Source: a virus
IMG/VR virus record: IMGVR_UViG_3300035190_000672
Location: 1-26,053 of that record
Strand: one strand, 5' to 3'
DNA length: 26,053 bases
Shown: piece by piece, positions 87-18,997 of the stretch
Layout: every line of letters starts with the position of its first letter
Numbering within the stretch: the stretch's first letter is position 1
Notes under the pieces: generated by a model
What the model was told of the DNA's origin: nothing
Database searches by the model: none
The model's input: only the letters and a program-made list of their open reading frames with translations
Made by a program: the position numbers and the translations under genes

Positions 87-90
87 CACT

Positions 91-390
91 ATGAAACCAT
101 ACTACTACGTTTACAGACACGGACACAGAGGACCAGAAATCAAACACCCCTCAGTTATCTCAGCACAAAAAGAATCGATTCGACTTGCCGAACAGCATCC
201 AGAATCTACCTTCGAGATCCTGAAGTGTGTCGGAGTTACTAGAACCACAAAAGCGCAGACCTTCTGGATGGAACGCGAAGAGCCCGAAGAACTTACTCGT
301 CCCATCGGCGACAGTTGCCGAGGATTCCTCGACAACTCAGAATCACCAACTGAAAAATTTCAGCGTTACAATGGACGCGGCGGACAATGA
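91..390 (+). CDS. Small hypothetical phage protein, 99 aa
   Basis: This 99-residue protein begins MKPYYYVYRHGHRGPEIKH, a Tyr/His-rich start, followed by a mixed alpha/beta-looking region (about residues 20-65) and a polar tail rich in Glu, Arg and Gly. The ATG at 91 lies 4 bases after the preceding stop, in the context TTAACACT-ATG, with no Shine-Dalgarno. The stop at 388-390 overlaps the likely start of the next gene (371). No enzyme motif is visible. By position it belongs to the early-type cluster of small genes ahead of the replication genes. Function unknown. Confidence 0.7.
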   Translation: MKPYYYVYRHGHRGPEIKHPSVISAQKESIRLAEQHPESTFEILKCVGVTRTTKAQTFWMEREEPEELTRPIGDSCRGFLDNSESPTEKFQRYNGRGGQ

Positions 391-592
391 TACCACTATG
401 GACAATCCAACGACGCTCCCTTCTAGAAAGTACACCTGTATCATTTGTGGTACAAAGGGACGCCGTGGCAACAAGCCGGAACAACGTCTCATGGAGCCGA
501 TCTGTCCGAAGTGCCAGAATGACTTCTGGACAGTCGAACGGATCATACCAGTACTGCCGAAGTTTCTTGAGTACTACCATTCCAAACAATAA
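371..592 (+). CDS. Small zinc-ribbon-like protein, about 73 aa
   Basis: From the ATG at 371 the protein is about 73 aa; an alternative ATG at 398 would give 64 aa. It carries two CxxC knuckles, CIIC (about residues 26-29) and CPKC (about 47-50), spaced as in a zinc ribbon, with a Lys/Arg-rich stretch between them. Such small zinc ribbons often bind nucleic acid or protein, but nothing narrower can be said. The 371 start overlaps the upstream gene by 20 bases. The 398 start gives almost no overlap and cannot be excluded. An in-frame extension further upstream to 227 would run through the previous gene and is not favoured. Confidence 0.65.
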   Translation: MDAADNDTTMDNPTTLPSRKYTCIICGTKGRRGNKPEQRLMEPICPKCQNDFWTVERIIPVLPKFLEYYHSKQ

Positions 593-614
593 CTGATGAC
601 AGACAATCGGAATC

Positions 615-794
615 ATGATAACTGAACCAAACACCAAAACGAAGGAAGAGGCATTGAGGTATTTTGCTGAGATGCCACCCATAACCAATGGGGACGGCTC
701 GTTGGATTACGAAGCAATGGCTGGAGAGCTTCTCGTCGAAGGAGTCCCTTTTGCAGAAGTTAGCCCCTATATGAAAGCTCTTGGATTAGCCTAA
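615..794 (+). CDS. Small hypothetical protein, 59 aa
   Basis: An ATG at 615 opens a 59-codon frame ending at the TAA at 792-794. The protein begins MITEPNTKTKEEALRYFAEM and has a middle part rich in Gly, Asp and Glu, then a helix-like end (EVSPYMKALGLA). It fills the gap between the genes at 592 and 809, and the composition is protein-like and acidic. There is no Shine-Dalgarno. It could be a small regulator or a host-takeover protein, but nothing in the sequence says which. Confidence 0.6.
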   Translation: MITEPNTKTKEEALRYFAEMPPITNGDGSLDYEAMAGELLVEGVPFAEVSPYMKALGLA

Positions 795-808
795 TAGACA
801 CTAACCAT

Positions 809-1159
809 ATGAGCATCATAGACGAAGCCATTGAAAAGATCCTTGCCGACAAACGGGAAGCCCAACTGGAAGCGGCCCACTGGAAAACGGAGGCACTGAT
901 GCTCCGCAGCATTCGGCAGCGGCAGGAAGAGTTGGGCCTGACCGACCGCAACAACCACGCGCTCCGTGTGCGTTGGGTAAACGCTTTGCGAAAACTCGTT
1001 GACAAACGGATGCCCACAAATAGGATGGGCTCCCCAATGACTACCGATGTGGACGTCCTACTGGCAACAGAGGAGGAGCATCTCGAAGTACTCAAGACTC
1101 TCTATGAAAACAGAAACACCGAAACTAGAAGCACAAAACCTGATATTGACTGCCCTTAA
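809..1159 (+). CDS. Hypothetical helical protein, 116 aa
   Basis: The ATG at 809 follows the motif CTAACCAT, with no Shine-Dalgarno. The product is highly charged and predicted mostly helical (MSIIDEAIEKILADKREAQL, then an Arg/Gln-rich helix at residues 30-65). The last 56 bases overlap the next gene in another frame, so the C-terminus (about 18 residues) is shared coding DNA. No known domain is recognised. It sits in the run of small genes upstream of the nuclease gene and is probably co-transcribed with it. Confidence 0.65.
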   Translation: MSIIDEAIEKILADKREAQLEAAHWKTEALMLRSIRQRQEELGLTDRNNHALRVRWVNALRKLVDKRMPTNRMGSPMTTDVDVLLATEEEHLEVLKTLYENRNTETRSTKPDIDCP

Positions 1160-1289
1160 AGAGGCGTACTTCAGGAGGGCAAAGAAAGAAAAAATTGGAA
1201 GCACGAAACAACTAACCGAAGAAATCAACCTACTAGAATCCGCAATCAAGGAACTCATACAACAAATTAAAGATGACAAAGAAAATTGA
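1104..1289 (+). CDS. Small Lys/Glu-rich coiled-coil-like protein, 61 aa
   Basis: I chose the ATG at 1104 (MKTETPKLEAQNLIL). A longer frame back to 1047 would only translate the neighbour's DNA out of frame. The protein is a run of amphipathic helix rich in Lys, Glu, Leu and Ile (for example LTEEINLLESAIKELIQQIK), typical of a short coiled coil. It overlaps the previous gene by 56 bases and the next by 17. Function unknown. Confidence 0.6.
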   Translation: MKTETPKLEAQNLILTALKEAYFRRAKKEKIGSTKQLTEEINLLESAIKELIQQIKDDKEN

Positions 1290-1554
1290 ACCATTTAAAA
1301 TCATTGGCCGTAACGGCCATTCATGTACCCTGACAAAGCTGAAGCCAAAAAAGTATCTGCTCTCGTTTGTTCACGCGATTGTACGGTGGGGTTATAAAGA
1401 GGACTCGACAGAGATTGACTTCGTCGATCCATCCGGCGGTCCATTTATTTCAGTCGGTACGTCGCTTCGGGACTTACACCCGAAACTTCCAGACAAGAAG
1501 ATTGTCTCAATCACCGTTGATAAGGATATCAAAGTTACGATCATTGACATATGA
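1273..1554 (+). CDS. Small hypothetical beta-rich protein, 93 aa
   Basis: The ATG at 1273 lies inside the end of the previous gene, and the stop at 1552-1554 overlaps the ATG of the nuclease gene at 1551 in an ATGA arrangement. The 93 residues alternate hydrophobic and charged positions (KKIVSITVDKDIKVTIIDI at the C-terminus), suggesting a small beta-rich fold. No catalytic motif is seen. The 4-base stop/start overlap suggests translational coupling to the nuclease and perhaps a linked role. Confidence 0.7.
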   Translation: MTKKIEPFKIIGRNGHSCTLTKLKPKKYLLSFVHAIVRWGYKEDSTEIDFVDPSGGPFISVGTSLRDLHPKLPDKKIVSITVDKDIKVTIIDI

Positions 1555-2666
1555 AAAAGCAACCAGACCACGGCTCACGTGGACACGCAGAGTTCTCGCC
1601 ATCGTCCCTCAAGTACGTATCAAAGTGTTCTGGATTCCACGGACGCGAAGGCACTAACGCCGCCGCCGAAATGGGAACACGAATCCATGAAGCGTTGGAA
1701 ATCTTTGATCCGTCGGCTCTTCACAACGAGCAAGAGCTAGACATCTATGAAAGGATCGTGGCGATGGAGGCAGAGTTTTTGGGTAACTTCAGCGGCATCG
1801 CTAAGGAGTTCAACGAGATCCAAGTTACTGTATCCCTCAACGGCACAGAGACGTGGGGTACATGTGACCGATTCCTGATTCTTGCAAACGGGAACGCTGT
1901 GATGGCGGATTATAAAACCGGAATCAGTATTATCGATCCACCAGAAAGGAACTGGCAAGCGAAGGCGTATGTCGTCGGCGCGTTCCAGAAATTTCCAGAC
2001 GTTGAAGAGATTACGTTTGTGTTCTATGTACCACAGCACAACCAGTCTCTATACCACACCTTCTCGCGTGCGGCTGATCTCGATCGATTGATTGACGAAC
2101 TGAGCATCGTTATCCTCAAGGCGGAAAAGACACGACCGAAATGGATCGGAGGCAAGCCAGCTCTGGAAGACCTCACTCCGACCCCGAACTGCCGCTTCTG
2201 CCGTTACGAAGATATCTGTCCAGCCCTTGGCGGATTGGTACTAGAGGTAGCCAGAAAGATCGACCCTCAGATTCCCGATGTGGACATCGAGAACACCGAA
2301 GATCCAGTGGTGCTGGAAGAACTGTGGGCCGTTGCTAAGGTCGTCTCGAACTGGTCTGAGCGACTCCGCTCCAGAACTGTTGAACTCGCGAAGAACGGGA
2401 CCGAGTTCCCCTCCCTCCGGCTCCGCTCGATGGGATCGACAAAGAAGATCGTAGACAACTCAACAGCCGTTTCTGTCGCTCTAGAGTTCGGCCTTTCTCC
2501 GGAAGACATTATCCAAGAGGCTACCCTGTCCGTTAATAAGTTAGCCAAAGCAGTTGCGGCTAACGTGGAAAAATTAGAAAAGAAAAAAATATCTCAAGAT
2601 TTTGTTGACGCCTGTCAAAATGCTGGCATCATCGAAACGTCCGAACCGCGATACACGCTGTCCTGA
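1551..2666 (+). CDS. RecB/Cas4-like PD-(D/E)XK nuclease with Fe-S-type cysteines (DUF2800-like)
   Basis: A 371-residue protein resembling the phage DUF2800 family of exonucleases. Visible elements in order are: SPSSLKYVSKC with C26; H46 in the helix GTRIHEAL; D106 in GTCDR; the core D120-Y-K122 in ADYKTG; Q136-x3-Y140 in WQAKAY; and C214-x2-C217-x5-C223. C26 plus the three late cysteines match the four-cysteine iron-sulfur staple of Cas4, AddB and Dna2-type nucleases. From the family, a role in DNA end processing or recombination during replication is expected. It precedes the polymerase and primase-helicase genes. The first 15 residues are polar. The ATG overlaps the preceding stop. Family assignment is strong; its exact activity is inferred. 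Confidence 0.85.
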   Translation: MKKQPDHGSRGHAEFSPSSLKYVSKCSGFHGREGTNAAAEMGTRIHEALEIFDPSALHNEQELDIYERIVAMEAEFLGNFSGIAKEFNEIQVTVSLNGTETWGTCDRFLILANGNAVMADYKTGISIIDPPERNWQAKAYVVGAFQKFPDVEEITFVFYVPQHNQSLYHTFSRAADLDRLIDELSIVILKAEKTRPKWIGGKPALEDLTPTPNCRFCRYEDICPALGGLVLEVARKIDPQIPDVDIENTEDPVVLEELWAVAKVVSNWSERLRSRTVELAKNGTEFPSLRLRSMGSTKKIVDNSTAVSVALEFGLSPEDIIQEATLSVNKLAKAVAANVEKLEKKKISQDFVDACQNAGIIETSEPRYTLS

Positions 2667-2705
2667 CAACAAACAACAAACATAGAAGCTAGAAACCATA
2701 ATAAT

Positions 2706-3350
2706 ATGAGTGAAGAAACCGAAATGCTAATGGCACAAAACACTGGAATCATCAGCAACCAAAGTGGCCTGATGATTGACTCGCGTGACATCGACATCCC
2801 ACGTGTCAATGTCGTTCAAAAAATCTCCGACATCGATGCTCCTACCGGAAGCCTTGTGTTGGATAAAAAGCATGTCCTGCTCAAGCCGGAAGAAACTGGT
2901 GAGGCTATCGTTGTATCCGCGACGAAGGCATGGAAGGAAGACATCCCATTTGATTCGGACGGCATCCCCCGTATCGCATCAAATCCGGATGACGCAAAAA
3001 GATTGGCACTGGATTCGGAATGGCCCATTCTTGAATTCGCTGACATCATCTTGCTGTTCAAGCAACCAGAAGGAGCTGTAGACGAAGACGCTTATGCATT
3101 CCCTATCGGAGACGATAACTATGCATTGGCCAAATTGTATGCAGCAAAAGACGCATACAGGCGGACATTCAAATGTCTTGCTACCTTTGCGGTCTTCAAC
3201 CGTAATACTCCGATCCAAAGCCGCGTCTGGGACTTCCAGACTCAGCTCATGGAAAAGGGTAAATACAGTTGGTATATCCCCACGCTGAAGGCGACTAACA
3301 ACCAGACGCCGAAAGCAGTTGCTGAATTCCTCTCATCCTTTAACGCCTGA
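2706..3350 (+). CDS. Putative ssDNA-binding or replication accessory protein, 214 aa
   Basis: A 214-residue acidic protein lying between the nuclease and the DNA polymerase. The body (about residues 25-205) looks like a mixed beta fold with recurring aromatic residues (KYSWYIP, RVWDFQTQL, YRRTFKCLATFAVF) that could stack on nucleobases. The position next to an exonuclease is where many phages keep an annealing or ssDNA-binding protein, and this is the main basis for the suggestion. I recognise no diagnostic motif, and the acidic tail usual in SSBs is absent. The ATG at 2706 follows a 39-base gap rich in A and C (ACCATAATAAT-ATG) with no Shine-Dalgarno. Confidence 0.55.
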   Translation: MSEETEMLMAQNTGIISNQSGLMIDSRDIDIPRVNVVQKISDIDAPTGSLVLDKKHVLLKPEETGEAIVVSATKAWKEDIPFDSDGIPRIASNPDDAKRLALDSEWPILEFADIILLFKQPEGAVDEDAYAFPIGDDNYALAKLYAAKDAYRRTFKCLATFAVFNRNTPIQSRVWDFQTQLMEKGKYSWYIPTLKATNNQTPKAVAEFLSSFNA

Positions 3351-3354
3351 TACC

Positions 3355-3561
3355 ATGACTCATCACGAAATCATCCGCCAAGAAATTGAACACGCATCCA
3401 AAGTTATTGCAGAACTCAGTGAAAACATTGAGAAGCTCACTGCACAACGGGATCGTATCGCCGCCTTTGTCGAAGCAATGGACGTTGCCTTGACAAGCAT
3501 TCCAGAACAACTGGAGTTTGAACTAGAGACGCCGCAAAACGTCGTTAAGTTCGATCAATAA
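3355..3561 (+). CDS. Small coiled-coil protein, 68 aa
   Basis: The ATG at 3355, 4 bases after the preceding stop, starts a 68-residue protein. Residues 1-48 form a heptad-like amphipathic helix (HASKVIAELSENIEKLTAQR), followed by a short acidic tail. It is the last gene before the strong terminator at 3569-3628, so it ends the first transcription segment. An upstream extension to 3319 would overlap the previous gene and is not favoured. No family recognised; it may oligomerise or act as a partner protein. Confidence 0.65.
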   Translation: MTHHEIIRQEIEHASKVIAELSENIEKLTAQRDRIAAFVEAMDVALTSIPEQLEFELETPQNVVKFDQ

Positions 3562-3568
3562 AAAACCA

Positions 3569-3628
3569 CCCCGCGCACAGCTCCCCCCGTTCGTTTATTA
3601 GCGAACGCTGTGCGTGGGGTATCTTTTT
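3569..3628 (+). terminator. Branched GC-rich terminator ahead of the DNA polymerase gene
   Basis: The outer stem pairs CCCCGCGCACAGC (3569-3581) with GCTGTGCGTGGGG (3607-3619), with one G-U pair. An inner stem pairs CGTTCG (3588-3593) with CGAACG (3602-3607), with a C-rich bulge at 3582-3587. A tract TATCTTTTT follows at 3620-3628. This is a classic intrinsic terminator shape for plus-strand transcripts. It lies 14 bases upstream of the polymerase ATG, so it should limit polymerase and primase expression unless read through. Confidence 0.85.
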
Positions 3629-3641
3629 GCCTAAAAACAAT

Positions 3642-5402
3642 ATGAATACATACGCATTAGATTTCGAGTCGTACTACGACAAACAGTGTTCGATCACTAC
3701 CTTGGGGCCGAGAGGTTATTTTTCACACCCTAACTTCGATGCCTACATGGTATCCGTTGTCGGAGACGAAGGGACTAGATTCTGTGGCTCTCCAGCCGAC
3801 TTTGATTGGACCGTACTTAATGGCCAACGCATCCTTTCCCATAACGCTTCGTTCGACCAACACCTCTATTACTTCGGTGTGGAGAACAAGTGGTGGCCGT
3901 CAGTCGATTTTGCAGAGTGGCACTGCACCGCCGATATGGTCGCTTGCCTCGGACTTCCAAGGAGCCTTAAAAATGCTTCCGCTGTCGTCCTTGGAATAAC
4001 TGTGGACAAGTCAACCCGTGATAACATGAGCGGGAAGAAGTGGTCCTCCATGACAGATGAGTTCCAGAAAGAAGTCATCGAATACGCGATTAAAGACTCC
4101 GAGTACTGTTTGGAGCTGTGGCAACGCCTGTCAGACAAATGGTCGGAACGCGAACGCAGAATCAGTTTCGTTAACCGATCCGCCGTATTCAATGGCATCC
4201 CGATTGATACTGAGCTGCTTCAGAAGAGCATGGCAGATATCAACCAAACGCTATTCAATACCGAAGAATCGATTCCTTGGGTCGGAGAGAAGCCCGTCTT
4301 GAGCCGCATCGCGTTCAATGACGAATGCCGTAAGAATGGTTTGGAACCTCCGGCAAGCCTTGCTCTGGACAGCGACGAAGCGAACGAGTTCTTGGACACC
4401 AATAGTGAACAATACCCTTGGATCAACGCTGTCCGTAACTTCAGGCGGATCAACTCTCTCAAGCGCAAACTCGAATCGTTCGACAAAGCGACAATGGACG
4501 ACGGAAGATTCTACGGCGGGCTCATGTATTTCGGAGCACACACCGGACGCTTTTCTGGATCCGGAGGGAATCTAAACCTACAGAACCTACCGCGTGGCGA
4601 GATGTTCGGAGTTGACCTTCGATCGCTTATCGCGCCAGCCAAAGGAACCAGACTGCTCGCTGTTGACCTGTCGCAGATTGAGGTACGCACTCTATGCTGG
4701 TTGGCAGAAGACAAAGATACAATGGCAGAGATCGCCGCGAGCGACGATATCTACCAAGCGTTTGCCGTCCGTTTCGGGCTGTGGGATAAGGACAAAGGAT
4801 CGATGCGCGACCTTGATCCGAAAACCCGTCATATGGTCAAGGCAATCGTCCTCGGCTGCGGCTACGGCTGCGGTCCGGAAAAGTTCTCCATGATCTCCAA
4901 GATGAATCTCACCGAAGCCGAAGGCGCGGTAAACCTGTACCGGACAAAGATGAAGAAAGTCGTCGGGCTTTGGAGGACATACAACGAGAACATGGGTCTC
5001 TCGAAACAGCAAGAGGATGAGTTTTCGATACAGCTCCCATCTGGCAGATCCCTGAACTACGGCCATCTACAGGCTGTGCCCCATAAAGGCCGTATACAAT
5101 ATGTTGCGATGATGAACAAGCATTCCAAGAAAATGCCTGTCAAAGTCTATGGCGGTCTTCTGGCGGAGAACGCCAGCCAAGCCCTTGCCAGAGACGTTTT
5201 CTGCGACATGCTTTGCCGGATCCACGATGCTGGCTTGAAAATTATTTTCCACGTCCACGATGAAGTAGTGCTGGAAGTTCCAGAAGAAACTGCTAACGTG
5301 GATCTCCAGCGCGTGATCGAGATCATGTCCACTCCTCCGGATTGGATCCCCGATATCCCGCTTTCTGCTGAAGGATCAATTCTTACTAAATACACAAAAT
5401 GA
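3642..5402 (+). CDS. Family A DNA polymerase with 3'-5' exonuclease domain
   Basis: A 586-residue replicative polymerase. The exonuclease motifs are all present: D7-F-E9 (Exo I), N68-ASF-D72 (Exo II) and Y148-AIK-D152 (Exo III). The polymerase palm and fingers follow: LQNLPRG, motif A with D342 in VDLSQIEVR, motif B with R396 and K400 in RHMVKAIVLGCGYG, and motif C HDE at 539-541. It should copy the phage genome with proofreading. It is shorter than T7 gp5 (704 aa), so the thumb or processivity-factor insert is probably reduced. I chose the ATG at 3642 rather than the TTG at 3627, which lies in the terminator T-tract. Its stop overlaps the next ATG (ATGA). Confidence 0.95.
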   Translation: MNTYALDFESYYDKQCSITTLGPRGYFSHPNFDAYMVSVVGDEGTRFCGSPADFDWTVLNGQRILSHNASFDQHLYYFGVENKWWPSVDFAEWHCTADMVACLGLPRSLKNASAVVLGITVDKSTRDNMSGKKWSSMTDEFQKEVIEYAIKDSEYCLELWQRLSDKWSERERRISFVNRSAVFNGIPIDTELLQKSMADINQTLFNTEESIPWVGEKPVLSRIAFNDECRKNGLEPPASLALDSDEANEFLDTNSEQYPWINAVRNFRRINSLKRKLESFDKATMDDGRFYGGLMYFGAHTGRFSGSGGNLNLQNLPRGEMFGVDLRSLIAPAKGTRLLAVDLSQIEVRTLCWLAEDKDTMAEIAASDDIYQAFAVRFGLWDKDKGSMRDLDPKTRHMVKAIVLGCGYGCGPEKFSMISKMNLTEAEGAVNLYRTKMKKVVGLWRTYNENMGLSKQQEDEFSIQLPSGRSLNYGHLQAVPHKGRIQYVAMMNKHSKKMPVKVYGGLLAENASQALARDVFCDMLCRIHDAGLKIIFHVHDEVVLEVPEETANVDLQRVIEIMSTPPDWIPDIPLSAEGSILTKYTK

Positions 5403-7573
5403 CATACCGATACATCAAGAACCTACGCTCGTCTGCTGCTTCTAAATCTTCAGATCTGAGCAAACTTAAAAAGAAAAAACCAGAACATAAAAACAAAGCG
5501 GCATATAGAACATGGTGTTCTGACAACGACACAGACCACGTATTCTATAGCACCGTAGAGGGCGACGCCCCATCGAAGAGAGTTAGCAACGATAACCCTC
5601 CGGCGGCTATCTATGGCATCGTCGCAGACTATGACGCTCCAGTTGATTGGGACGCCGTTGACAACGCGATCAAGATGAAGTGCGGAGACAAGATGCCGAC
5701 GTGGCGATCCAAAACCCATTCGGGATATATCCGTCTTGTGTGGGAATTTGAAGACCGCCTGCCGATCACACTAGAGATGTTTGAAGTCTTCATGAAACAC
5801 ATGAAGGACTCACTCAAGCTCGACCGCATCTTTGCCGGATTCGATGCCACATCGCTCAAGCCAAACCAATACTTTGAACTCGGAGAAGATTGGGTTCAGA
5901 TCGGGGGCAAGACTTCGTCCGCCATCTACCAAACGGCGCTCATGAAGGCCGCTAAAGAAAAGCCGCCACAGACCAGCGAGACCTCCATCCCTATGGATGT
6001 CATCGGCGCTGAGGTACAGAAACAATTCCCAAACCGTTGGGTCGGTGAATTCGATATCGGGGTACGCGGACCGCTGTTCTGGATCGATGACGGCATCAGC
6101 CGTGAAGGGTGCCAGATCGTCGAAGACGGTGTGGTCTGCTACAGCGACCGTGCTGGAAAGGGATTTGTTTCGTGGCGAGAAATCCTCGGAGCCAAGTTCG
6201 TCCAAGAATACGAACAGAAGAAGCTCGGAAATCTTTTGGATCAGTATTGGTTCAACGGGAAGTCTCACTTCAAGTTGCTCCACAGCACAGCCGTCGATAT
6301 CCCGAAAGACCAGTTGATCCTCGAACTACGCCAGTTTGGCTTTAACCCGAAGGCGAAGAAGGGCCAGCCGCTCTCCGAACTGGAAGCCGCAATCCTTGTG
6401 ATCAACAACCAGAACCGCATCGACGAGATCGCGCCAGTGGTTTTCTCCAAGGACCGCGTCGTGACATACAACAGTCACCGAATCCTGAACAATGCGAACA
6501 TCAATCCGGTAGAGCCAGCCGACAACGGCGATCCGGCAAACTGGCCGTTCATCAACCAATGGCTTGGCCAGCTGTTCCACAATGCGGGAAACAGGCCGAC
6601 TGTTGAGTATCTGTACGCGTGGCTCAAGAGATTCTACTCAGCCGTCCTTAACCGACAATTCGTGCAGGGACAGGCTATGCTACTGGTCGGCCCAACAAAT
6701 AAAGGCAAGTCACTTCTGTCCAATAGGGTCATCTCTCAGCTGGTCGGTGGATATGCGGACGCTTCGGACTACCTATCCGGACAGACGAAATTCAACAAGG
6801 ACTTGGCGCGTGTTGCCGCTTGGGTCATCGACGACACAACGTCGGCTGCGTCCTTTCAGGATCAGCGTAAGGCTACCGAACTCATCAAGCGTGCCGTCGC
6901 CAATCCGAGGATCGAGTACCATGCCAAGTATGTGGACGCCATCTCAGTCCCGTGGACCGGACGGGTGATCTTCTCGCTCAACATGGACGCGAACAGCCTC
7001 TCCGTGATCCCGTCTCTGGATTCAAGTAACAGGGACAAGTTGATGGCGTTGCGGATCAGCGGTAAGGCGACAAGCAACTTCCCTCCAAACGGAAAACTGG
7101 AACAGATTATCTCTGCCGAACTCCCATACTTTGCCAAGTGGCTTTTGGATTGGGACGTTCCCGCCGAGATCGATGACGCCAGCCGTTTCGGAGTTAAGAG
7201 CTATATCGATGAGACAATTGCCTCAGCCGCCTACGACAACTCAAGCCGTTCCTCCGTAGCGGAGTTGGTCGAGTTCTTTGTCAAGCGTCTGCGGGATTAC
7301 AACAAGGAGCTTACCCACTGGACGGGCACACTTACTGAGTTCCAAGTCGCTCTACACGACCTCAACAACGGGCGTGCCGTCGGCATGTCAGGAAACCTTG
7401 AGTTTGTCCGACGCGGCATGGCCACAATGGAAGAGGCTTTCCGTAGCAACACCCATGTCCGTCCTGTCCGTTCATTCGGCCAAGGGGGCGGGAAGGTGTG
7501 GGAAGTCAACCTTGATCCGAAGTACGATATCAGCAGGAGCCAAGATAGCTTTGGAGATCCTCCATCTTCTTGA
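5399..7573 (+). CDS. Primase-polymerase / superfamily 3 helicase fusion protein
   Basis: A 724-residue protein with two parts. The N-terminal part resembles an archaeo-eukaryotic primase-polymerase: D77-Y-D79 in GIVADYDAP as the metal-binding pair, then KTHSGYIRLVWEF and a late FDATSLKPNQYFELG segment. The C-terminal part is an AAA+ SF3/VapE-like helicase: Walker A GPTNKGKS (431-438), Walker B WVIDD (475-479), and a polar sensor-like FSLNMD strand. It should prime and unwind DNA for the polymerase encoded just upstream, with which it shares an ATGA overlap. A Lys-rich stretch follows the N-terminus (residues 22-33). The last 44 bases overlap the opposing nuclease-like gene. The helicase call is firm; primase activity rests on motif resemblance. 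Confidence 0.88.
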   Translation: MTYRYIKNLRSSAASKSSDLSKLKKKKPEHKNKAAYRTWCSDNDTDHVFYSTVEGDAPSKRVSNDNPPAAIYGIVADYDAPVDWDAVDNAIKMKCGDKMPTWRSKTHSGYIRLVWEFEDRLPITLEMFEVFMKHMKDSLKLDRIFAGFDATSLKPNQYFELGEDWVQIGGKTSSAIYQTALMKAAKEKPPQTSETSIPMDVIGAEVQKQFPNRWVGEFDIGVRGPLFWIDDGISREGCQIVEDGVVCYSDRAGKGFVSWREILGAKFVQEYEQKKLGNLLDQYWFNGKSHFKLLHSTAVDIPKDQLILELRQFGFNPKAKKGQPLSELEAAILVINNQNRIDEIAPVVFSKDRVVTYNSHRILNNANINPVEPADNGDPANWPFINQWLGQLFHNAGNRPTVEYLYAWLKRFYSAVLNRQFVQGQAMLLVGPTNKGKSLLSNRVISQLVGGYADASDYLSGQTKFNKDLARVAAWVIDDTTSAASFQDQRKATELIKRAVANPRIEYHAKYVDAISVPWTGRVIFSLNMDANSLSVIPSLDSSNRDKLMALRISGKATSNFPPNGKLEQIISAELPYFAKWLLDWDVPAEIDDASRFGVKSYIDETIASAAYDNSSRSSVAELVEFFVKRLRDYNKELTHWTGTLTEFQVALHDLNNGRAVGMSGNLEFVRRGMATMEEAFRSNTHVRPVRSFGQGGGKVWEVNLDPKYDISRSQDSFGDPPSS

Positions 7574-11120: not shown

Positions 11121-11549
11121 CTACCACTTGCCAATAGGACACTTTTCAGTAGCAAGCCGCAGCTTTGCGACAGTAGAACAGCCGCAAATTTTACACTGTC
11201 CAGTATTTCCGAGGGCCTCGGAATCCCAATGTGGGCATGCTTTACACTCGTCTAACCGATTATGGTAGACTTCTTTTGGAGCTATCTTGAAACCAGAGCC
11301 AGCCCAATTCACCATACTTTTAGTTACAGACTTAGCCATGTCTTTTAATTGCGGCGGGTCGAACGATTCGTTATCAAGATTGTTTTCTCTGGGCCCATAT
11401 TTATTTCTCATGTCAACCCACTCTTTAAAAGGCATTTTTAATAGATCTCCTTCTTGAATACAAAGAGATAGTACTTCTTCATAGTACCCTTCTGGCCTGT
11501 TGATTGAGGCGGCTTTAAGATCGTCGATCGAAAATAATTGATATTCCAT
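11121..11549 (-). CDS. Cysteine-cluster phage protein ending CPIGKW, 142 aa
   Basis: The last 45 residues contain C-x2-C, then C-x2-C-G-C, then a final C in the ending CPIGKW (visible as CKAC, CKICGC and CPIGKW). This arrangement suggests zinc or metal binding. Similar C-terminal clusters occur in phage proteins of unknown function. Residues 1-95 are polar and acidic, with little predicted hydrophobic core. I chose the ATG at 11549 over the GTG at 11555. The base composition is AT-richer than the lysis genes. The function is unknown; its place beside virion genes suggests a structural or assembly partner. Confidence 0.65.
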   Translation of the reverse strand: MEYQLFSIDDLKAASINRPEGYYEEVLSLCIQEGDLLKMPFKEWVDMRNKYGPRENNLDNESFDPPQLKDMAKSVTKSMVNWAGSGFKIAPKEVYHNRLDECKACPHWDSEALGNTGQCKICGCSTVAKLRLATEKCPIGKW

Positions 11550-11563
11550 ACTCACAATATGTT

Positions 11564-12517
11564 TTATGGGGGGCCAGAGTCAGTTCCGCAAGATACAATA
11601 TAAGACGAATATACTGTGCCTGATGTATTAGTATTACTCCCCTGTATGCTGACAGTTATTGATTCAGCGTTTTTTGCTACTAGAAGCGTGCCGCTTACAC
11701 TCTCATTCTTCTTTGGTTTTGATACTGTGGAAGACTGCCCTGTATTAGAAGATACGGTTATACTACCAACAAGGCCGCCAGAGAAGGAGAAACTCAGCAA
11801 TGCTGGAGCACTCATAGTATAAACAAAATATGTTTTAGATGAAGAGTATAAACTTCCAGCCGAGACATCTGCGTAGTCTCTTATTGGTTCTGGCAATACA
11901 CACCCGCTACATCGGCATTCATTTGCATCTCCTTGTCCGAAATTATTTGGGTAGAACCTCTCAATTGCACGTATTTCTTTCTTGATATAACCTTCAAATG
12001 AGGAGTCAGCAGAGAGTTTTAAATTTGGATACTGAAGAGTAACTTCGCTAAGCGGTAGTTCCCCCCAATCCCCATCAAATCCAGAATACCAGCTACCTTT
12101 GTGATGAAAAAACGTTCCTAATTTACTGCCAGTTATTTGATTCGGTGCTGCTCCTGTATTTAGAGGGTCACTTACTAAAGAATAACTATGGGGGTTTACC
12201 GGAATAGTCTTCAAACCCTCTGCGGTTAATTCAGTTACTGGTGAACTATATGCCGAATGGTCGTCTATACCATAAGTTGTACTATAAAGGCCCCTCCAGC
12301 AGTTTGATTCGCTTTTCTCCACAACGCAAATTTTTTTTAAATTAAATAGCCAATCGGTTGCGCTATCCAAAGATGAACCAGCTAATCTTCCTTCCAATTG
12401 TAAATTACTAAAAGTACTGTCAGGGATCATTGAAAGGTCGTCCCCGACGGGTGTTATTAAAAAAGTAGTGTTGGGCATTTCTTCAAGGATAGAGGGATTA
12501 TGTGGCGCGTCAACCAT
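11564..12517 (-). CDS. Unknown Ser/Thr-rich beta protein, 317 aa
   Basis: The protein begins MVDAPHNPSILEEMPN. It has several Trp/Tyr-rich patches (WLFNLKK, WRGLYSTTYG, HHKGSWYSGFDGDW), a cysteine knot-like CRCSGC near the middle, and a C-terminal third rich in Ser, Thr, Val and Gly (FSGGLVGSITVSSNTGQ). That end looks like repeated beta strands, as in tail or receptor-facing proteins. I do not recognise the family. The ATG at 12517 is preferred over the GTG at 12526. It is divergent from the plus-strand gene at 12583, and codon use is AT-richer than the replication genes. Confidence 0.6.
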   Translation of the reverse strand: MVDAPHNPSILEEMPNTTFLITPVGDDLSMIPDSTFSNLQLEGRLAGSSLDSATDWLFNLKKICVVEKSESNCWRGLYSTTYGIDDHSAYSSPVTELTAEGLKTIPVNPHSYSLVSDPLNTGAAPNQITGSKLGTFFHHKGSWYSGFDGDWGELPLSEVTLQYPNLKLSADSSFEGYIKKEIRAIERFYPNNFGQGDANECRCSGCVLPEPIRDYADVSAGSLYSSSKTYFVYTMSAPALLSFSFSGGLVGSITVSSNTGQSSTVSKPKKNESVSGTLLVAKNAESITVSIQGSNTNTSGTVYSSYIVSCGTDSGPP

Positions 12518-12526
12518 AAAATACAC

Positions 12527-12555
12527 TTGACGGCAGCGCCGTAATCAGTTACTTT
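12527..12555 (+). promoter_or_regulatory. Sigma-70-like promoter for the first plus-strand repeat-protein gene
   Basis: TTGACG (12527-12532), a 17-base spacer and TACTTT (12550-12555) precede the ATG at 12583. The same hexamers and spacer length recur at 13301-13329, and nearby bases also match (CTTGACGGCA, TAAT, GTTACTTTTC). The predicted leader is about 20 bases. The -35 end lies close to the divergent start at 12517. Confidence 0.7.
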
Positions 12556-12582
12556 TCGGGATCCCAACTAACCCAATAAGAT

Positions 12583-13299
12583 ATGGCATGGAAAAATAAA
12601 ATAATTGAATCGTACGAAAATATGTATTCTCCAGCACAGGTGAATCTTAAGGGGCACACATCGTATAAACCATTCACGCCGTCGGGGGTGCCTCCTTTAG
12701 TTTCATCGGGTGGGGTTGATTATGCGGCTCGCGAAAAATATTATGCGAATCAATACTCATTAGATTTACAGCGACAAAAATCTCGGCAACTCCAGAAGAG
12801 CGAAAACGAGTCTAAATCGAGTCTACCCGAAACGCCCGCACAAAACCCTCGTTTTTATGGGCCAAACAATAGCTTTCAATCATGGGGGCCCCCCACTCCA
12901 TCTTCGTCGAGCGCCGGAATTAAGACTACATTCTTCGGCCCTTATGGCAGAACGAGTTCAAATGAAGATCTCTTATCTTCGGCCAGAGCGTTTTCTTTTA
13001 GCCGCCCCCCGCAACTCGATTCTTCTTTTTATCAAGGAAACCAGACATCTACTTTCCCCGCTGGCGGCATGGGTTCGCCGAGCGCAGCATATCCTGCTGG
13101 TGGCATGGGTTCGCCGAGCGCAGCGTACCCTGCTGGTGGTGGTAAAAATCAAAATATCAACGATTACTTTGAGCTGCCCGCTGGATACAAACCCCCACCG
13201 CCAAAAGCTGACGGCAGCCCGTTCTATTCTGGATCCCCACAACCATCCGGATCTCCAAGTTTCTTTGGGAACCTGACATGGACTCGCAAGGCGTATTAG
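12583..13299 (+). CDS. Pro/Gly/Ser-rich low-complexity protein, 238 aa
   Basis: This gene lies on the plus strand inside a minus-strand virion block and has its own promoter. The product is rich in Pro, Ser, Gly and Tyr, with a Gln/Lys/Ser-rich part at about residues 55-85. It has a PPQLDSSFYQG segment (142-152) also found in the next gene, and two exact 12-residue repeats AGGMGSPSAAYP (160-183). The tail has several Pro/Ser/Gly stretches. There are no enzyme motifs, transmembrane helices or signal peptide. Such sequence suggests a flexible, disordered protein. The first ATG (12583) is used; a second in-frame ATG is not adjacent. The function is unknown. Confidence 0.6.
   Translation: MAWKNKIIESYENMYSPAQVNLKGHTSYKPFTPSGVPPLVSSGGVDYAAREKYYANQYSLDLQRQKSRQLQKSENESKSSLPETPAQNPRFYGPNNSFQSWGPPTPSSSSAGIKTTFFGPYGRTSSNEDLLSSARAFSFSRPPQLDSSFYQGNQTSTFPAGGMGSPSAAYPAGGMGSPSAAYPAGGGKNQNINDYFELPAGYKPPPPKADGSPFYSGSPQPSGSPSFFGNLTWTRKAY
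13006..13071 (+). repeat. 66-bp segment shared with 13401-13466 (PPQLD-SFYQG copy 1)
   Basis: The 22 codons here and those at 13401-13466 encode PPQLD[S/P]SFYQG[N/G]QT...PAGGM. Much of the DNA is also identical, notably a run around TCTTTTTATCA and the ending GCTGGCGGCATG. The repeat links the two adjacent plus-strand genes by descent. Confidence 0.75.
13060..13131 (+). repeat. Tandem 36-bp repeat, two copies
   Basis: Units at 13060-13095 and 13096-13131 encode the same 12 residues, AGGMGSPSAAYP, and a partial third copy (AGG) follows. The DNA differs at few positions, so the duplication looks recent. Confidence 0.85.
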
Positions 13300-13300
13300 C

Positions 13301-13329
13301 TTGACGGCAACAGGATAATAGGTTACTTT
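13301..13329 (+). promoter_or_regulatory. Second, duplicated sigma-70-like promoter
   Basis: TTGACG (13301-13306), a 17-base spacer and TACTTT (13324-13329) start one base after the preceding stop codon. The flanking bases match the promoter at 12527. Predicted transcription starts about 16 bases before the ATG at 13353. Confidence 0.7.
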
Positions 13330-13352
13330 TCAAAATCCAACCCTTAAAAATC

Positions 13353-14312
13353 ATGGCTCTAGCATACGTACCCCCCGAAAATAGATCCTCAAACTACGGT
13401 CCCCCACAGCTTGATCCTTCTTTTTATCAGGGTGGCCAGACATTCGCTCCCCCCGCTGGCGGCATGTGGCAGCCTTACCAATCGTCGGCATCAGATCGAA
13501 TGGGGTTTAGCGAAGATTTTTTAAGCCACATAAGGATGGCGCGTGATCTAAGTAGGCAGCAGAGAGCGGCAGATGTTGCAAAAACAACTGGAGAAACTGA
13601 AAAAATGTTTGCCATGACGCCCTTTGAACAGGGGTTAATGAGCGCCCAAGCTCAGTCTGCTTCGGGATCAGCAGCTGCGAGCATGGCCAGCGCAGGGCTG
13701 AGCCAAGCTCAAGCATCGAGAGTCTCAGCACTAACTCCGTACGAGATCGCCGAGATGAGAGCCCAAACAGGACTTCTCGGCGCTCAATCCGGTAAGCTGT
13801 TCGCTGAGACTGCGACAGAGTGGGGCATGACGCCGTCAGGAATGGCTAACGTCGGACTCACTCAAGCCCAAGCAGAAAAACTGCGGGCTGAAGCAGCATC
13901 AGAATACGGCTACACGGCACCCGCTAGAGCGAACATAAATCTTACGAATGCCCAAGCAGGAAAATACACGGCGGATACCGCAGAAACTTACGGATACACG
14001 GCACCTGCTAGAGCGAACATAAATCTTACGAATGCCCAATCAGGAAAATACATGGCGGATACCGCAGAAACTTACGGATACACGGCACCAGCTCAAGCAA
14101 ACATAAATCTTACGAATGCCCAAGCAGGAAAATACATGGCGGATACCACAAAACCTTACGGAGTTCCTAACTTCAGCAATGCAATGGCGGGTTCCACTTA
14201 TTTTGGTGGGGGGCCTCAAATTACTTCTTCAATAATAGCGCCACCCACTTCCCTGAAAAAACGTCTCGTAACTTATGCAAACGGAGCGAGGGGTTGGCAG
14301 TATTATAGTTAA
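13353..14312 (+). CDS. Repetitive Ala/Gln-rich protein with three 28-residue repeats, 319 aa
   Basis: The N-terminus has PPQLDPSFYQG (17-27), shared with the preceding gene. Residues 60-180 are Ala/Gln/Ser-rich, helix-forming and repetitive in a looser way (LTQAQAEKLRAEAASE). Residues 185-268 are three 28-residue copies of YGYTAPARANINLTNAQAGK plus a short T/A/D/E-rich end, almost identical in DNA. The C-terminus (about 270-319) is a unique, more ordered segment ending GARGWQYYS. The pattern of Asn/Ala/Gln/Lys helical repeats resembles ejection or DNA-pilot-type virion proteins, but this is only a resemblance. It has its own promoter and converges with the gene at 14635. No enzyme motif. Confidence 0.6.
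   Translation: MALAYVPPENRSSNYGPPQLDPSFYQGGQTFAPPAGGMWQPYQSSASDRMGFSEDFLSHIRMARDLSRQQRAADVAKTTGETEKMFAMTPFEQGLMSAQAQSASGSAAASMASAGLSQAQASRVSALTPYEIAEMRAQTGLLGAQSGKLFAETATEWGMTPSGMANVGLTQAQAEKLRAEAASEYGYTAPARANINLTNAQAGKYTADTAETYGYTAPARANINLTNAQSGKYMADTAETYGYTAPAQANINLTNAQAGKYMADTTKPYGVPNFSNAMAGSTYFGGGPQITSSIIAPPTSLKKRLVTYANGARGWQYYS
13401..13466 (+). repeat. 66-bp segment shared with 13006-13071 (copy 2)
   Basis: This is the second copy of the PPQLD-SFYQG-PAGGM coding segment, near the start of the 319-aa gene. In the first gene the same segment lies past the middle, so the copies occupy different positions in their proteins. Confidence 0.75.
13905..14156 (+). repeat. Three tandem 84-bp repeats
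   Basis: Units start at 13905, 13989 and 14073, each encoding 28 residues in frame. Shared DNA such as AACATAAATCTTACGAATGC is identical in all three. Period and frame are exact, so copy number can change without breaking the gene. Confidence 0.92.
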
Positions 14313-14314
14313 AT

Positions 14315-14635
14315 TTACTTAAACCCGAATGGGGTATCCACGACCATAGTACCCACCTGTCCATCCTTCCAGACGACAAAAGCCGCGTTTAGTTTAGCCT
14401 CGGCCCTAGATTCTACTGGCGAGGAGTCCCCCTCAGTCGCCGTTGTAGTAGTTCTTTTTATTTTTATGGGATCATCTAAATAAAAATTTATCAAGTTATT
14501 ACTATTATTGCTAGCTCTTCGGTTCTCTAAAGATTCCCGCATTGTGCCAAATAAGTCTTGTTGAACTTGACCATTTGAAGCATCAAAAAAATTAGAACTA
14601 GAGTTAGGGTTGGGTTCTTGATATTGATCAGGCAT
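14315..14635 (-). CDS. Small hypothetical Asn/Ser-rich protein, 106 aa
   Basis: This protein starts MPDQYQEPNPNSSSNFFDAS and is rich in Asn, Ser, Thr and Glu. The end is more ordered (AAFVVWKDGQVGTMVVDTPF). It converges with the plus-strand 319-aa gene with only 2 bases between the stops. It is the first gene downstream of the 879-aa structural gene (32-base gap). No family or motif recognised. The composition is AT-rich. Confidence 0.55.
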   Translation of the reverse strand: MPDQYQEPNPNSSSNFFDASNGQVQQDLFGTMRESLENRRASNNSNNLINFYLDDPIKIKRTTTTATEGDSSPVESRAEAKLNAAFVVWKDGQVGTMVVDTPFGFK

Positions 14636-14667: not shown

Positions 14668-17307
14668 CTATTCAAATTCATTGTCATAATCAAATTGATC
14701 TGCATCTACTACTGTCGTAACTACCTTATAGTAGCCCCACTTATAGGGCTCTATCCGAGAGTCAACAGCGTATAATCCGTACCTTGGAATATCGTATTGA
14801 GAAGTCCTCTCTAAAAAAGTGGGCTTTATGTAACCATAAGCGTTCCGCTCTCGGACATAGTTCGGACCAGTAATTTTAGCCGTTTCTTCTTGGCGCGCAC
14901 CGTCTATTGTAATATCATAGCAGAGACACGGACCTATCCGTACTGTGTCTATGTTGTTGACATATTTATACGAAGAGCCCTCTCCATCGGTATTGCCGAC
15001 GGCTTCTCTATCTATAGAGATAGACTTAGATCTGCTCTTCGTAAACCTAGCAGTAAGCTCAATTGAGTTGCCAACTACCGTTAAAGAAAATGTTTTTGTT
15101 TTAAATACGGGCCACTCTTCTACATTTTCAGGGGCCTTTAAAGCATTGTTCCCGCCAGAAGCTGTTGGAAAACTTCTGGCCCCTAAAAGTCGATTTAGTT
15201 CCGAAAGATATTCCTCTGGCTTTTGGACGAAATAGAAATAATTTGTAGCGATTATATCGCTAGACCATACCTGTTCCATTTGGATATCTAATACTGGTTG
15301 CACCGATGCAGATGCCGAAACACTTCCGGAAGTTGTTACGCTAACAGATCCATCGTCGATACCCTCTACATTGTCTACGCCGTTTTCCGTATACTCTCCC
15401 TCAGACTTATTCTTTTCCCAGAGTACCTCAATTTTTTTCAGTACTTGTGGGAGGTTTAAATTTATTCTAGTCTTTGTAAGGGATAGATATTCATCAATCT
15501 CCTTAGGTGCAAAATCCTCGACAAGAATTGTCTTATCTTTGTTTACGGCTTTGTATGATTTCGACGAAGAAGTGTCAGGAATTTCAAGTTCGCTTAGGGT
15601 TTTGCTATCCTTAACAGTTTGTCTCTGTATCGAAAGAGCGTTCATTGTGTCGTCCCACACAGCAGAAACCAGAGGAGGCCACTCTTTTACTTTAATAGTT
15701 TGATTTAAATATTTACCCCCGCCAAGTGGTGTAGACGATGACTGTTCAACTAAATATCCTGTTTCTATGTCAGCATAATTGGATATCTCCTCTTTAATTT
15801 CAGCTTCGGCTCCGCCGACGTAAGCCTGTTTTCCAGTTAAAGATGTTGTGTATTGAGGCGCTGAGGTGATCTCTAGCCTAGATACAAATTCATTTATCTG
15901 TTTACTGCCTATTGATACAGCATTTGGAGCGTTTATTGGAGCTGAACTATTTGCAGCGTTAAACTGCGACTCGACAAGGGGGCCTAAAAATTTATCCGGT
16001 ATGTTTTTTAATATCTCCTGCGTCGAGGATCCTGCGCCAAAAACTTTTGGAACTTCAGTCTTTCTAACCACATATGTGCCGTCACCCAATGCTTCGCTTT
16101 CGATATCAACAGTAGCTGACGGTTTCTGAGTGGTATCCCCAACCTGAAGCGTTTCAGTAACGGCTACGATTTGCTTTTCGCTAGAAGTTGCTGTCTGCGT
16201 CAAAGATTTGGGGAGAGTCGTGACATCTCTTTTGGTTTTGCTCTTCCGCTTTACAAATTTATTTTGCTGTTGTTCAGTGGCCGAAAGCTCGCCGACACTT
16301 AAAACTGGTTTCTGCGCTGTTCCAATTTCGTTGATATCTTCTGTTGTGGTCGGTACAATTGCCCGAAACTTTGGGGGAACCAGATCAGGTTTTTCCGCTG
16401 AGAACGACTCGGCTTTAAATAGTTCGGGTGCTGTGATGACACGCTGGAGGCTTTGTCCATTGCCGAGAGGCTCGACTGAACCATCGACCGTTAGTGCTGA
16501 AGCCTCAATCGTCGTGCCGTCTGGAACGATGGTCTCGACTACGTCTGCAACTTGCAGTACATTGGTGACTTGCTTGCCGCTAAGTGATCCGATGTTTTCA
16601 GCAGATGACCGCTTTACAGTACGCTTTCGTTTTAGATTCGTATTGATCTGGTCCTCAGTAGCTGCGAGCTGGTCGCCAATAAGGGTCGGCGTTGTCACTT
16701 CGCCCTCTGCCAATTCTTCAGTCGTAGTCGTCGGCGACAACACACGAAACTTTGGCGGCAGCGGGTCTTGCTTTTCGACGGAAAGAGACAGTTGCTCATC
16801 GAGTACGGCGGCCTCAACGTAGCTGTGTGCTTCGACCACAAAGAGAGAATTGAGTTCTTCCTGCTGCGTATTCTGTTGTTCTTTGTCGTAGAACACATAG
16901 CTTACGCCGTCGAACTTGCCTTCTGGAGTATCCGGCATCGGCGTGCCAAATTCGATATCGACTGGCTTAAAGTTCTCCCGCAGAGTAACATATGTACGCG
17001 TAACCGTACGGAACTCCCGATTGCCAATAACTTTATTGCCGAAGGAAAAGTTGTAGAGATCCTGATTCTCACGCTCTGCTGCATAGAAGAACTCAAAGAT
17101 GCCGTCTCGCTCAATATCTACCGTCTTAACAAAGACCAGCTTGTGGTCTGGCCATTTTCCTGAATTAGGATGAGCTGTCCCGTATTCAGGAATCTCGGAG
17201 CGGGTGCAGTCACGTACTTCACTAAACAGGACGTCGCCGATAATTGGCGTCGGATAGACCCGACGGTCTTGCCTGTACGGAGCTTGAGGTAGTTGGGATA
17301 TGGGCAT
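14668..17307 (-). CDS. Large virion structural protein with three internal repeats, 879 aa
   Basis: The N-terminal region (1-170) is aromatic and beta-rich (FEFFYAAERENQDLYNFSFG). Three diverged repeats of about 126 residues follow, near 181-297, 307-423 and 436-545. Each begins like PPKFR or PDKF, contains a Lys/Arg-rich ATE-Q-N-KRK stretch (weak in the third) and ends in G[ND]G or GGG before PELF, PKVF or KEWP. A C-terminal region (about 600-879) has DIQMEQVWSSD, IGPCLCYDITIDG and YGLYAVDSRIEPYKWGYYK. The length and beta repeats suggest an extended tail component. The gene starts 1 base after the fibre stop. Codons appear AT-richer in the downstream half. The family is not certain. Confidence 0.7.
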   Translation of the reverse strand: MPISQLPQAPYRQDRRVYPTPIIGDVLFSEVRDCTRSEIPEYGTAHPNSGKWPDHKLVFVKTVDIERDGIFEFFYAAERENQDLYNFSFGNKVIGNREFRTVTRTYVTLRENFKPVDIEFGTPMPDTPEGKFDGVSYVFYDKEQQNTQQEELNSLFVVEAHSYVEAAVLDEQLSLSVEKQDPLPPKFRVLSPTTTTEELAEGEVTTPTLIGDQLAATEDQINTNLKRKRTVKRSSAENIGSLSGKQVTNVLQVADVVETIVPDGTTIEASALTVDGSVEPLGNGQSLQRVITAPELFKAESFSAEKPDLVPPKFRAIVPTTTEDINEIGTAQKPVLSVGELSATEQQQNKFVKRKSKTKRDVTTLPKSLTQTATSSEKQIVAVTETLQVGDTTQKPSATVDIESEALGDGTYVVRKTEVPKVFGAGSSTQEILKNIPDKFLGPLVESQFNAANSSAPINAPNAVSIGSKQINEFVSRLEITSAPQYTTSLTGKQAYVGGAEAEIKEEISNYADIETGYLVEQSSSTPLGGGKYLNQTIKVKEWPPLVSAVWDDTMNALSIQRQTVKDSKTLSELEIPDTSSSKSYKAVNKDKTILVEDFAPKEIDEYLSLTKTRINLNLPQVLKKIEVLWEKNKSEGEYTENGVDNVEGIDDGSVSVTTSGSVSASASVQPVLDIQMEQVWSSDIIATNYFYFVQKPEEYLSELNRLLGARSFPTASGGNNALKAPENVEEWPVFKTKTFSLTVVGNSIELTARFTKSRSKSISIDREAVGNTDGEGSSYKYVNNIDTVRIGPCLCYDITIDGARQEETAKITGPNYVRERNAYGYIKPTFLERTSQYDIPRYGLYAVDSRIEPYKWGYYKVVTTVVDADQFDYDNEFE
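15673..16767 (-). repeat. Three diverged ~126-residue protein repeats within the 879-aa gene
   Basis: Repeat starts correspond to residues 181, 307 and 436, i.e. about 16767, 16389 and 16002 on the minus strand. The two PPKFR anchors and the PDKF anchor are 127 and 126 residues apart. The repeats are seen in protein, not obvious in DNA, so the duplication is old. Confidence 0.7.
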
Positions 17308-17308
17308 A

Positions 17309-18997
17309 TTAGATTACGGCTACGGCTGTCAAGACGGCGTTGGTAATAAACAATGTATCAAGATTACTACTTATGTCTGCTATGTAAGGAGCAATCTCAT
17401 GGTCATTGCTGAGTGTTACTAACTTAGTAATGCTTAGAAACCCGCGCATCTCTTCATCGCTTGAAGTATTAGTAAGAACGCCATGAGACATAGATCCAGT
17501 GACCTCCGATAAGGAACCACTAGCTCCGCTGAAAAGTTTAATCCCGTATGCGTTATTATAACCCGCAACATAGAAACCCCTTCTAATCGCAATGCTGGCT
17601 GTTACCAAAAATACTCTGGTCGAACCGGATGTGTTTTTAATAGAAAAAGTATTTCTTTGTATAACAGTTGGATATGTTTCGATATAGTCCACAGTAGATG
17701 TACCAACAACAGTACCGACATTATGGGCAATAGTACCACCAGTAGGGATTGGTTTATAAGTCCCATTCGGAAAGTACGTGTCGTCGCCAATGTCTAACTC
17801 TGTCGCAAGATAAATCTCACCGCGTGGCGCTGTTGTAAGACCAGTGCCTCCTTTAACTACTGGAAGAATTCCGATATTGCTTGAGCTGGACAGATCTATT
17901 GGAGAAGGCACAAGACCACTAATATCGGATACGGGTATCGTAGCTGAAGTTGATAGTACAGTGCCATCCGATTTAACATAACCAGAAGAAAATGATGTTC
18001 TGCCAGTACCGCCGTTAGCAATTGGAAGGGTGCCGGAAATATCTGCAACTGGAATTGTTTCGCTAGTGGATAGTGCAGCAGTTCCAGTGCCTTTCACGTA
18101 ACCAGTAATCGTCGTGAGACCAGTACCACCGTTGGCTACTGGAAGGGTTCCAGATATATCCGCAACCGGAACTGTTGCGGCGGCGGTCATCGCAGTAGTT
18201 CCCGTTCCTTTCACATAACCAGTAAGTGTTACCGCGCCAGTGCCTCCGTTGGCTACTGGAAGGGTTCCAGAAATATCTGCAACCGGAACTGTCGGGCTAG
18301 TGGACAGCGCAGAAGTTCCAGTACCTTTTACATATCCTGTAATAGTCGTAAGACCAGTACCGCCTTTGCCGACGGGAAGAGTACCGCCGACGTCAGCAGA
18401 CAAGTTAATTGGAGACCAAGATGGGGCGGAAGATGTACCGTTTGCAGTAAGCACGTAGCCAGATGTTCCGGCACCCAACAAGGAAGTCGTTCCGCTGGCT
18501 GATTGATACGGAACAGATCCAATGGAACCTCCAGCAATATTGGTAGTTGTAGTAGCCAAAGTAGCCATATTGGCTGTAGTGGCTGTAGTAGCTGTAGTTG
18601 CAGATCCAGCAGTTGTGGCAAAAGTAGCCGTATTGGCGTTTCCAATGGTACTCTGGTTAAGAATCGGGAAATCTCCAGCAACAGCGGGGGCAACAATACC
18701 ACCAGTTGTAGTTTTTAAGATAGAGTTATTTGGGAAAGTAGAGATATCAACGCCTTTAATCTTATTAACGGTTAGTGCACCGTTAGTATCAGTAACATCT
18801 CCTGTATGTGTTTTGTTGGGAACCTTAGCAGTGTTAACAACGTGCTGGTCGAAAATGGTCGGGCTCATTAGGCCGCTAGTGATGGTAGAGGCTATCGGAA
18901 TCGCGTCGCTGCCGCCAGTAAGATGGGTGCTTGCGTGGTCAGATGGGATGCTGACGCCAGCGTCTGAGATAGTCAGGATATAAGTGTCTGAGGGCAT
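17309..18997 (-). CDS. Tail fibre protein with GGTG repeats, 562 aa
   Basis: The N-terminal region contains HASTHLTGGSDAIP and THTGDVT motifs, typical of phage fibre shafts, then an Ala/Thr run (TATFATTAGSATTATTATTA). Four tandem 39-residue repeats lie at about 206-361, each starting TLP[VI] and containing GGTG, with the spacer GYVKGTGT. Residues 370-562 form a likely receptor-facing head with alternating strands (TRVFLVTASIAIRRGFYVAG). It probably contacts the host surface. The ATG is 4 bases after the adaptor stop, and the stop is 1 base before the next ATG, so the three genes are tightly linked. Confidence 0.85.
   Translation of the reverse strand: MPSDTYILTISDAGVSIPSDHASTHLTGGSDAIPIASTITSGLMSPTIFDQHVVNTAKVPNKTHTGDVTDTNGALTVNKIKGVDISTFPNNSILKTTTGGIVAPAVAGDFPILNQSTIGNANTATFATTAGSATTATTATTANMATLATTTTNIAGGSIGSVPYQSASGTTSLLGAGTSGYVLTANGTSSAPSWSPINLSADVGGTLPVGKGGTGLTTITGYVKGTGTSALSTSPTVPVADISGTLPVANGGTGAVTLTGYVKGTGTTAMTAAATVPVADISGTLPVANGGTGLTTITGYVKGTGTAALSTSETIPVADISGTLPIANGGTGRTSFSSGYVKSDGTVLSTSATIPVSDISGLVPSPIDLSSSSNIGILPVVKGGTGLTTAPRGEIYLATELDIGDDTYFPNGTYKPIPTGGTIAHNVGTVVGTSTVDYIETYPTVIQRNTFSIKNTSGSTRVFLVTASIAIRRGFYVAGYNNAYGIKLFSGASGSLSEVTGSMSHGVLTNTSSDEEMRGFLSITKLVTLSNDHEIAPYIADISSNLDTLFITNAVLTAVAVI
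17915..18382 (-). repeat. Four tandem 117-bp (39-residue) fibre repeats
   Basis: The units start with TLPV or TLPI at residues 206, 245, 284 and 323, exactly 39 apart. Each holds GGTG and a VADISG-type end (VSDISG in the last). A partial further copy (ILPVVKGGTG) follows. GGTG repeats are a known shaft element of phage fibres. Confidence 0.9.

Follow-up and report, generated by a model that had tools for sequence, protein, structure and literature searches.

Morons are accessory genes inserted between phage genes (PMC4378225), and gp54 of phage N4 is the tail tube (PMC12633501). Here we compare with these systems two adjacent genes, A and B, found in a 26,053-nucleotide part of a virus record (IMG/VR record IMGVR_UViG_3300035190_000672), hereafter called the window. 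Comparisons with related contigs make it very probable that A and B form a mobile accessory cassette that carries its own putative promoters.

Genetic organization of the window

Replication genes occupy the plus strand of the window from 1 to 7573, and the minus strand from 7530 onwards carries virion, tail and lysis genes.

Within 1–7573, plus strand: Cas4-like exonuclease family, phrog_69 (profile match)
Within 1–7573, plus strand: predicted A-type DNA polymerase
Within 1–7573, plus strand: DUF5906 primase-helicase
Late block from 7530 onwards, minus strand: endolysins
Late block, minus strand: two phrog_1084/fibre-assembly-like proteins
Late block, minus strand: collagen-like and repeat-bearing fibres
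23155, minus strand: capsid-type gene, named from its position and size

The window has many relatives in IMG/VR, and the longest records fetched are 57–66 kb. Searches with B, MCP, the primase and the 312-aa protein gave no cultured relative among 50,697 phage records, and no relatives were found among plasmids and bacterial genomes. Integrase profiles (PF00589, PF00239) have no match in 11 related records of 34–66 kb, which may be fragments. The phages form an uncultured, apparently non-integrating clade of about 57–66 kb.

Genes A and B and their neighbours

An earlier note on this DNA had described two repeat-bearing plus-strand genes of 238 and 319 aa that share a protein segment and run against all neighbours. 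The reading frames, the repeats and the common segment are borne out. The direct neighbours C and D and the tail genes are indeed on the minus strand, but the replication genes are on the plus strand as well. The features of the unit are as follows.

11564–12478, minus strand: gene D, 304 aa, divergent neighbour, true start ATG at 12478
12583–13299, plus strand: gene A (ORF), 238-aa Ser/Pro/Gly/Tyr-rich low-complexity protein
13006–13071, plus strand: A copy of the common segment (PPQLDSSFYQGNQT..PAGGM), 66 nt, 80% identical to 13401–13466
13056–13139, plus strand: 36-nt tandem repeat in A, 2.3 copies, 89% matches
13353–14312, plus strand: gene B (ORF), 319-aa Ala/Gln/Thr-rich helical-repeat protein
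13401–13466, plus strand: B copy of the common segment, matching 13006–13071 in A
13506–13580, plus strand: best-conserved family core of B, GFSEDFLSHIRMARD.. (relatives: GFS[EK]GFLNYLADARAMKLREKEAG)
13905–14162, plus strand: 84-nt (28-aa) tandem repeat in B, 3.1 copies, 93% matches, YGYTAPARANINLTNAQAGKYTADTAET
14315–14635, minus strand: gene C, 106 aa, convergent neighbour with its stop 2 nt from that of B; homologues in contigs L008 and L012

Both frames are far longer than the ATG-initiated ORFs expected by chance on one strand (longest 174 aa, mean 90, in 300 shuffles of the 5.7-kb region), indicating that A and B are real coding genes. The start of the unit, earlier placed at 12518, is better set at about 12526, and its end at 14312 is kept. 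The common segment reads PPQLD[S/P]SFYQG.QT...PAGGM. The family core of B, GFS[EK]GFLNYLADARAMK across relatives, is followed on its 3' side by runs of short helices, in 28-aa units in the window and in 18-aa units in L008, and these two kinds of unit arose separately. Differences among the three 84-nt units of the window at the codon positions are 10/4/7, which is uninformative. The L008 units differ at 7/6/26 sites at codon positions 1/2/3 of the antisense frame, and this third-position excess shows that the antisense frame is under protein selection. An invertible segment of the kind used in phase variation was ruled out, as there are no long inverted repeats around the A–B unit.

The stop codons of B and C are separated by 0 nt in L008 and 10 nt in L012. 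The C protein of L008, encoded on the late strand, has an N-terminal stretch in common with B and a DYFELP.G motif in common with A (shuffle p values from under 0.001 to 0.002). The idea that B is an inverted duplicate of C was rejected because hhalign gives a probability of 0.1% for the B and C families and there is no DNA similarity; support for a B–C link is confined to short peptide similarity. Next to C, an 879-aa gene (14668–17307) has relatives of 612 to 1254 aa in which the N-terminus is kept and the length varies twofold through internal repeat modules, so that its product resembles modular tail or baseplate proteins. A 117-nt tandem repeat of 3.2 copies lies at 18003–18379 within the predicted tail fibre gene (17309–18997).

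Promoter-like sites of the cassette and of the late genes

The following candidate promoters were recognized from sequence patterns.

12527–12555, plus strand: site of A, TTGACG-N17-TACTTT, 27 nt 5' of the ATG (sequence, pattern count)
13301–13329, plus strand: site of B, TTGACG-N17-TACTTT, 23 nt 5' of the ATG (sequence, pattern count)
12486–12513, minus strand: site of D, TTGACG-N16-TATCCT, 7 nt 5' of the ATG, divergent from that of A
11113, 12513, 19998, 22449 and 24725, minus strand: late-gene sigma-70-like sites (homologous genes, about 20 loci)

The sites of A and B sit in a duplicated 39-nt leader (74% identical), copied either from A to B or from B to A. Its 31-nt pattern, TTGACGGCA-N6-TAAT-NN-GTTACTTTTC, occurs within the window in these two leaders only and never in shuffled sequences. 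A generic sigma-70 scan overlooks both sites because TACTTT scores only 3/6. No plus-strand terminator-like site was found near 14312.

TTGAC-N16–18-TAnnnT sites also lie directly 5' of the starts of late genes throughout the clade. Such a site precedes the 312-aa gene in 17 of 50 loci, among them almost every closer relative (the listed sites end about 6 nt short of the ATG), the 22080 gene in 14 of 18 and the D gene in three of four; the window holds eight such sites where 2.2 are expected. Since the late −10 boxes lie 6–10 nt from the start codon, little or no leader is expected on the late mRNAs, and the sites imply several promoters within the late block; a Shine-Dalgarno-like motif precedes just one of 26 genes. 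The claim that A and B each have their own promoter therefore stands as far as the presence of the sites is concerned, but the same promoter type 5' of the late genes means that it does not set the two genes apart. The spacing from the −10 box to the start codon is 23–27 nt in A and B, compared with 6–10 nt in the late genes. In the related cassettes of L012 and L095, a TTGACT site is conserved, as a sequence match, 5' of both genes; TTGACT-N17-GAACAT, if it is used with its poor −10 box, would give these cassettes the late-gene layout.

Distribution of the cassette among related phages

IMG/VR searches, for which B, the L012 and L008 proteins and a family alignment served as queries, found the B family in only three contigs beyond the window, L008 (= L010, L108), L012 (= L106) and L095 (= L107), giving four known members; the L008 homologue has an E-value of 8e-16. 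All three homologues are antisense to the late block and adjoin D in the same slot, and they are convergent with C wherever the contig reaches C. At the sensitivity used, IMG/VR has relatives of D in the four cassette-bearing contigs alone. Thus B recurs in the slot and orientation noted earlier, but the two-gene pair is present in the window only and is not a general feature. In L008, A and B form one fused 738-aa frame, to the N-terminal part of which A aligns (p about 0.001 by shuffles; strongest stretch DY[FL]ELP.GYKP), and L012 has one short gene of 302–307 aa with the B part alone. A same-strand 157-aa protein of L018 and an antisense 149-aa protein of L082 were discarded as relatives, their similarity being at chance level or to one member only; the unrelated L082 gene lies in an equivalent place with a TTGACC-N16-TATCCT site.

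The distribution of the cassette does not track the phage backbone. L015, whose primase is 93% identical to that of the window, lacks the cassette gene, whereas L008 (73%) and L095 (58%) carry it. The cassette DNA of L012 and L095 is 94–97% identical in the best-aligned 5' blocks and 81–96% further 3', although their backbone proteins are only 28% (D), 39.7% (312-aa protein) and 57.5% (primase) identical. This identity begins a few bases before the −35 box and spans the start region and the core, with in-frame indels in between; since the L095 contig ends within the cassette gene, the similarity is seen to its 5' edge only. A near-identical cassette in divergent phages points to horizontal transfer as a self-promoted unit, and the sequences indicate that gene and putative promoter moved recently between L012- and L095-type backbones. 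The GC content of the cassette is 0.48–0.51, against 0.37–0.46 in the adjoining C and D genes; in the window it is 0.49 and 0.51 for A and B against 0.41 for C and D, to which amino-acid bias contributes, and the cassette exceeds its neighbours in L012 too and slightly in L008. Some relatives, such as L073 and L077, have a recognizable C, in some cases with an adjoining D-like gene, and no cassette.

The evidence for mobility is the principal result of the analysis: a portable antisense cassette with its promoter moves between backbones of 30–60% identity elsewhere, in a clade with no detected integrase. The earlier description as an inserted, independently transcribed, moron-like unit gains strong support from the patchy distribution, the L012/L095 transfer and the GC content, and loses from the lack of a detected terminator and, in the 11 relatives, of an integrase.

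The variable region around the C–D slot is flanked by families that include tail-fibre and fibre-assembly proteins. An equivalent slot holds an antisense glycosyltransferase-9 gene in L059 (15035–16039), L061 (15036–16037) and L071 (14798–15799), where it adjoins poly-Ser proteins in the C position; the target of the enzyme may be the Ser-rich protein or the host surface. Same-strand glycosyltransferase-like genes (GT25, DUF3431) lie in the same variable region in L043 (18379–19221), L100 (12351–12947) and L102 (11694–12287), which makes the region a hot spot for accessory genes in general. The 3' end of a Cys-rich 144-aa gene that immediately precedes the 312-aa gene (window 11121–11260) is 94% identical in DNA between L095 (4253–4378) and L012 (9875–10000), otherwise divergent phages, and could be a recombination anchor for swapping the C–D module.

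Properties of the gene products

A and B contain no Pfam domain and match no credible PHROG family, and a PDB profile search gave nothing credible. PHROG tail matches (E 0.001–0.006) had raised tail-fibre homology, which was dropped because reversed B matches the same tail family at the same E-value, so that the likeness is compositional; the earlier proposal of specialized virion or ejection proteins is possible but draws no support from the profile searches. AlphaFold models have pLDDT values of 41 for B and 37 for the repeat half of the L008 protein, too low for fold comparison. Neither protein has a transmembrane stretch or Cys, and their charge is near-neutral to positive. The sole B match among the 50,697 phage records is gp83 of Acinetobacter phage Presley (E 3e-3; 28% identical across a repetitive stretch), which aligns in many alternative registers, and the likeness is likely to be convergence.

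Possible roles of the cassette

In the preferred reading the cassette inserts antisense into one variable slot of the tail/adsorption module, between C and D, and host RNA polymerase would read it from sigma-70-type promoters of the late-gene kind, so that it need not await read-through from the other strand. The product is predicted to be an extended soluble protein in which Pro/Gly/Ser/Tyr-rich linkers accompany an amphipathic core helix and TP/TAP-capped short helices that vary in number. It may be built into the particle or attached to it, serving as a spacer or adhesin that is optional and differs in length between phages. Co-occurrence with D and the peptides common to the L008 C protein link the product loosely with the tail module, and from this we infer, as a best guess, that it is a helical-repeat protein of variable length, an accessory to the adsorption module of the particle. 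The full statement, a mobile antisense cassette whose product lies in or on the particle as a spacer or adhesin, is tentative and somewhat short of an even chance. Virion genes normally lie on the late strand, opposite to A and B, which speaks against a virion role, and the movement of the cassette independently of the D sequence argues for an autonomous function.

The main alternative is that the same mobile cassette is a host-directed moron. Its own promoter would drive early expression, as for the other plus-strand genes, and the product would serve takeover, counter-defence or superinfection exclusion inside the infected cell. The position of the cassette on the replication-gene strand agrees with this, as does the slot of L059, L061 and L071, where glycosyltransferase 9 has a plausible surface-modifying function; a host-directed protein would explain the independent movement and the separate promoter nearly as well as a virion accessory does. 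However, the promoters are of the late-gene type, low-complexity, repeat-bearing, Cys-free proteins would be unusual effectors, and the lack of integrase matches in the relatives leaves no lysogenic benefit evident, so that a host-directed role is possible but rather doubtful. Decay of a fused L008-type gene into functionless remnants would agree with one gene in L008 and two in the window and with the rapid indels and repeats, but both frames are open, each with a promoter and a start, and the split coincides with the duplicated leader rather than with a plain stop or frameshift. Loss of function is therefore quite unlikely, and an ancestral single L008-type gene was probably split into A and B by the copied leader. 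Least likely, and very improbable, is a role for the RNA itself, in which the plus-strand transcript would run antisense to C and the 879-aa gene and tune late expression; the close B and C stops and the missing terminator are consistent with it, but protein-level conservation and third-position bias are not, and phage genes often converge this tightly.

A product located in the particle, as we prefer, would amount to a structural component of a mobile, plug-in kind; one acting in the cell would represent a new phage accessory protein family with no known domain. On a wider reading such genes would form a new class: mobile, equipped with a promoter, coding for particle proteins of variable length, placed antisense in the tail module and exchanged between distantly related backbones. 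This is unlikely, though it would let phages replace a virion component separately from the late operon.

Comparison with known systems

Presley gp83, an N4 gp54-like virion protein, and B both have Ala/Gln/Thr-rich helical repeats with P.EI and AQT.LT motifs, but N4 gp54 is an obligate late-strand gene. The glycosyltransferase-9 genes of L059, L061 and L071 sit in a slot of this kind and likewise run antisense to the late block, but they encode an enzyme of unrelated sequence. The cassette resembles a moron in that it is inserted between genes that are contiguous in relatives, has its own promoter (a sequence match), deviates from its neighbours in base composition, and is patchily distributed and transferred as a unit. 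It differs in that no terminator and no integrase have been detected, that own promoters are ordinary in its clade, and that in the window it comprises two genes antisense to the block. A classical lysogenic-conversion moron is thus not supported, given the missing terminator and the absence of integrase matches in the 11 relatives; A and B represent a new protein family in a cassette that is moron-like, though not strictly a moron.
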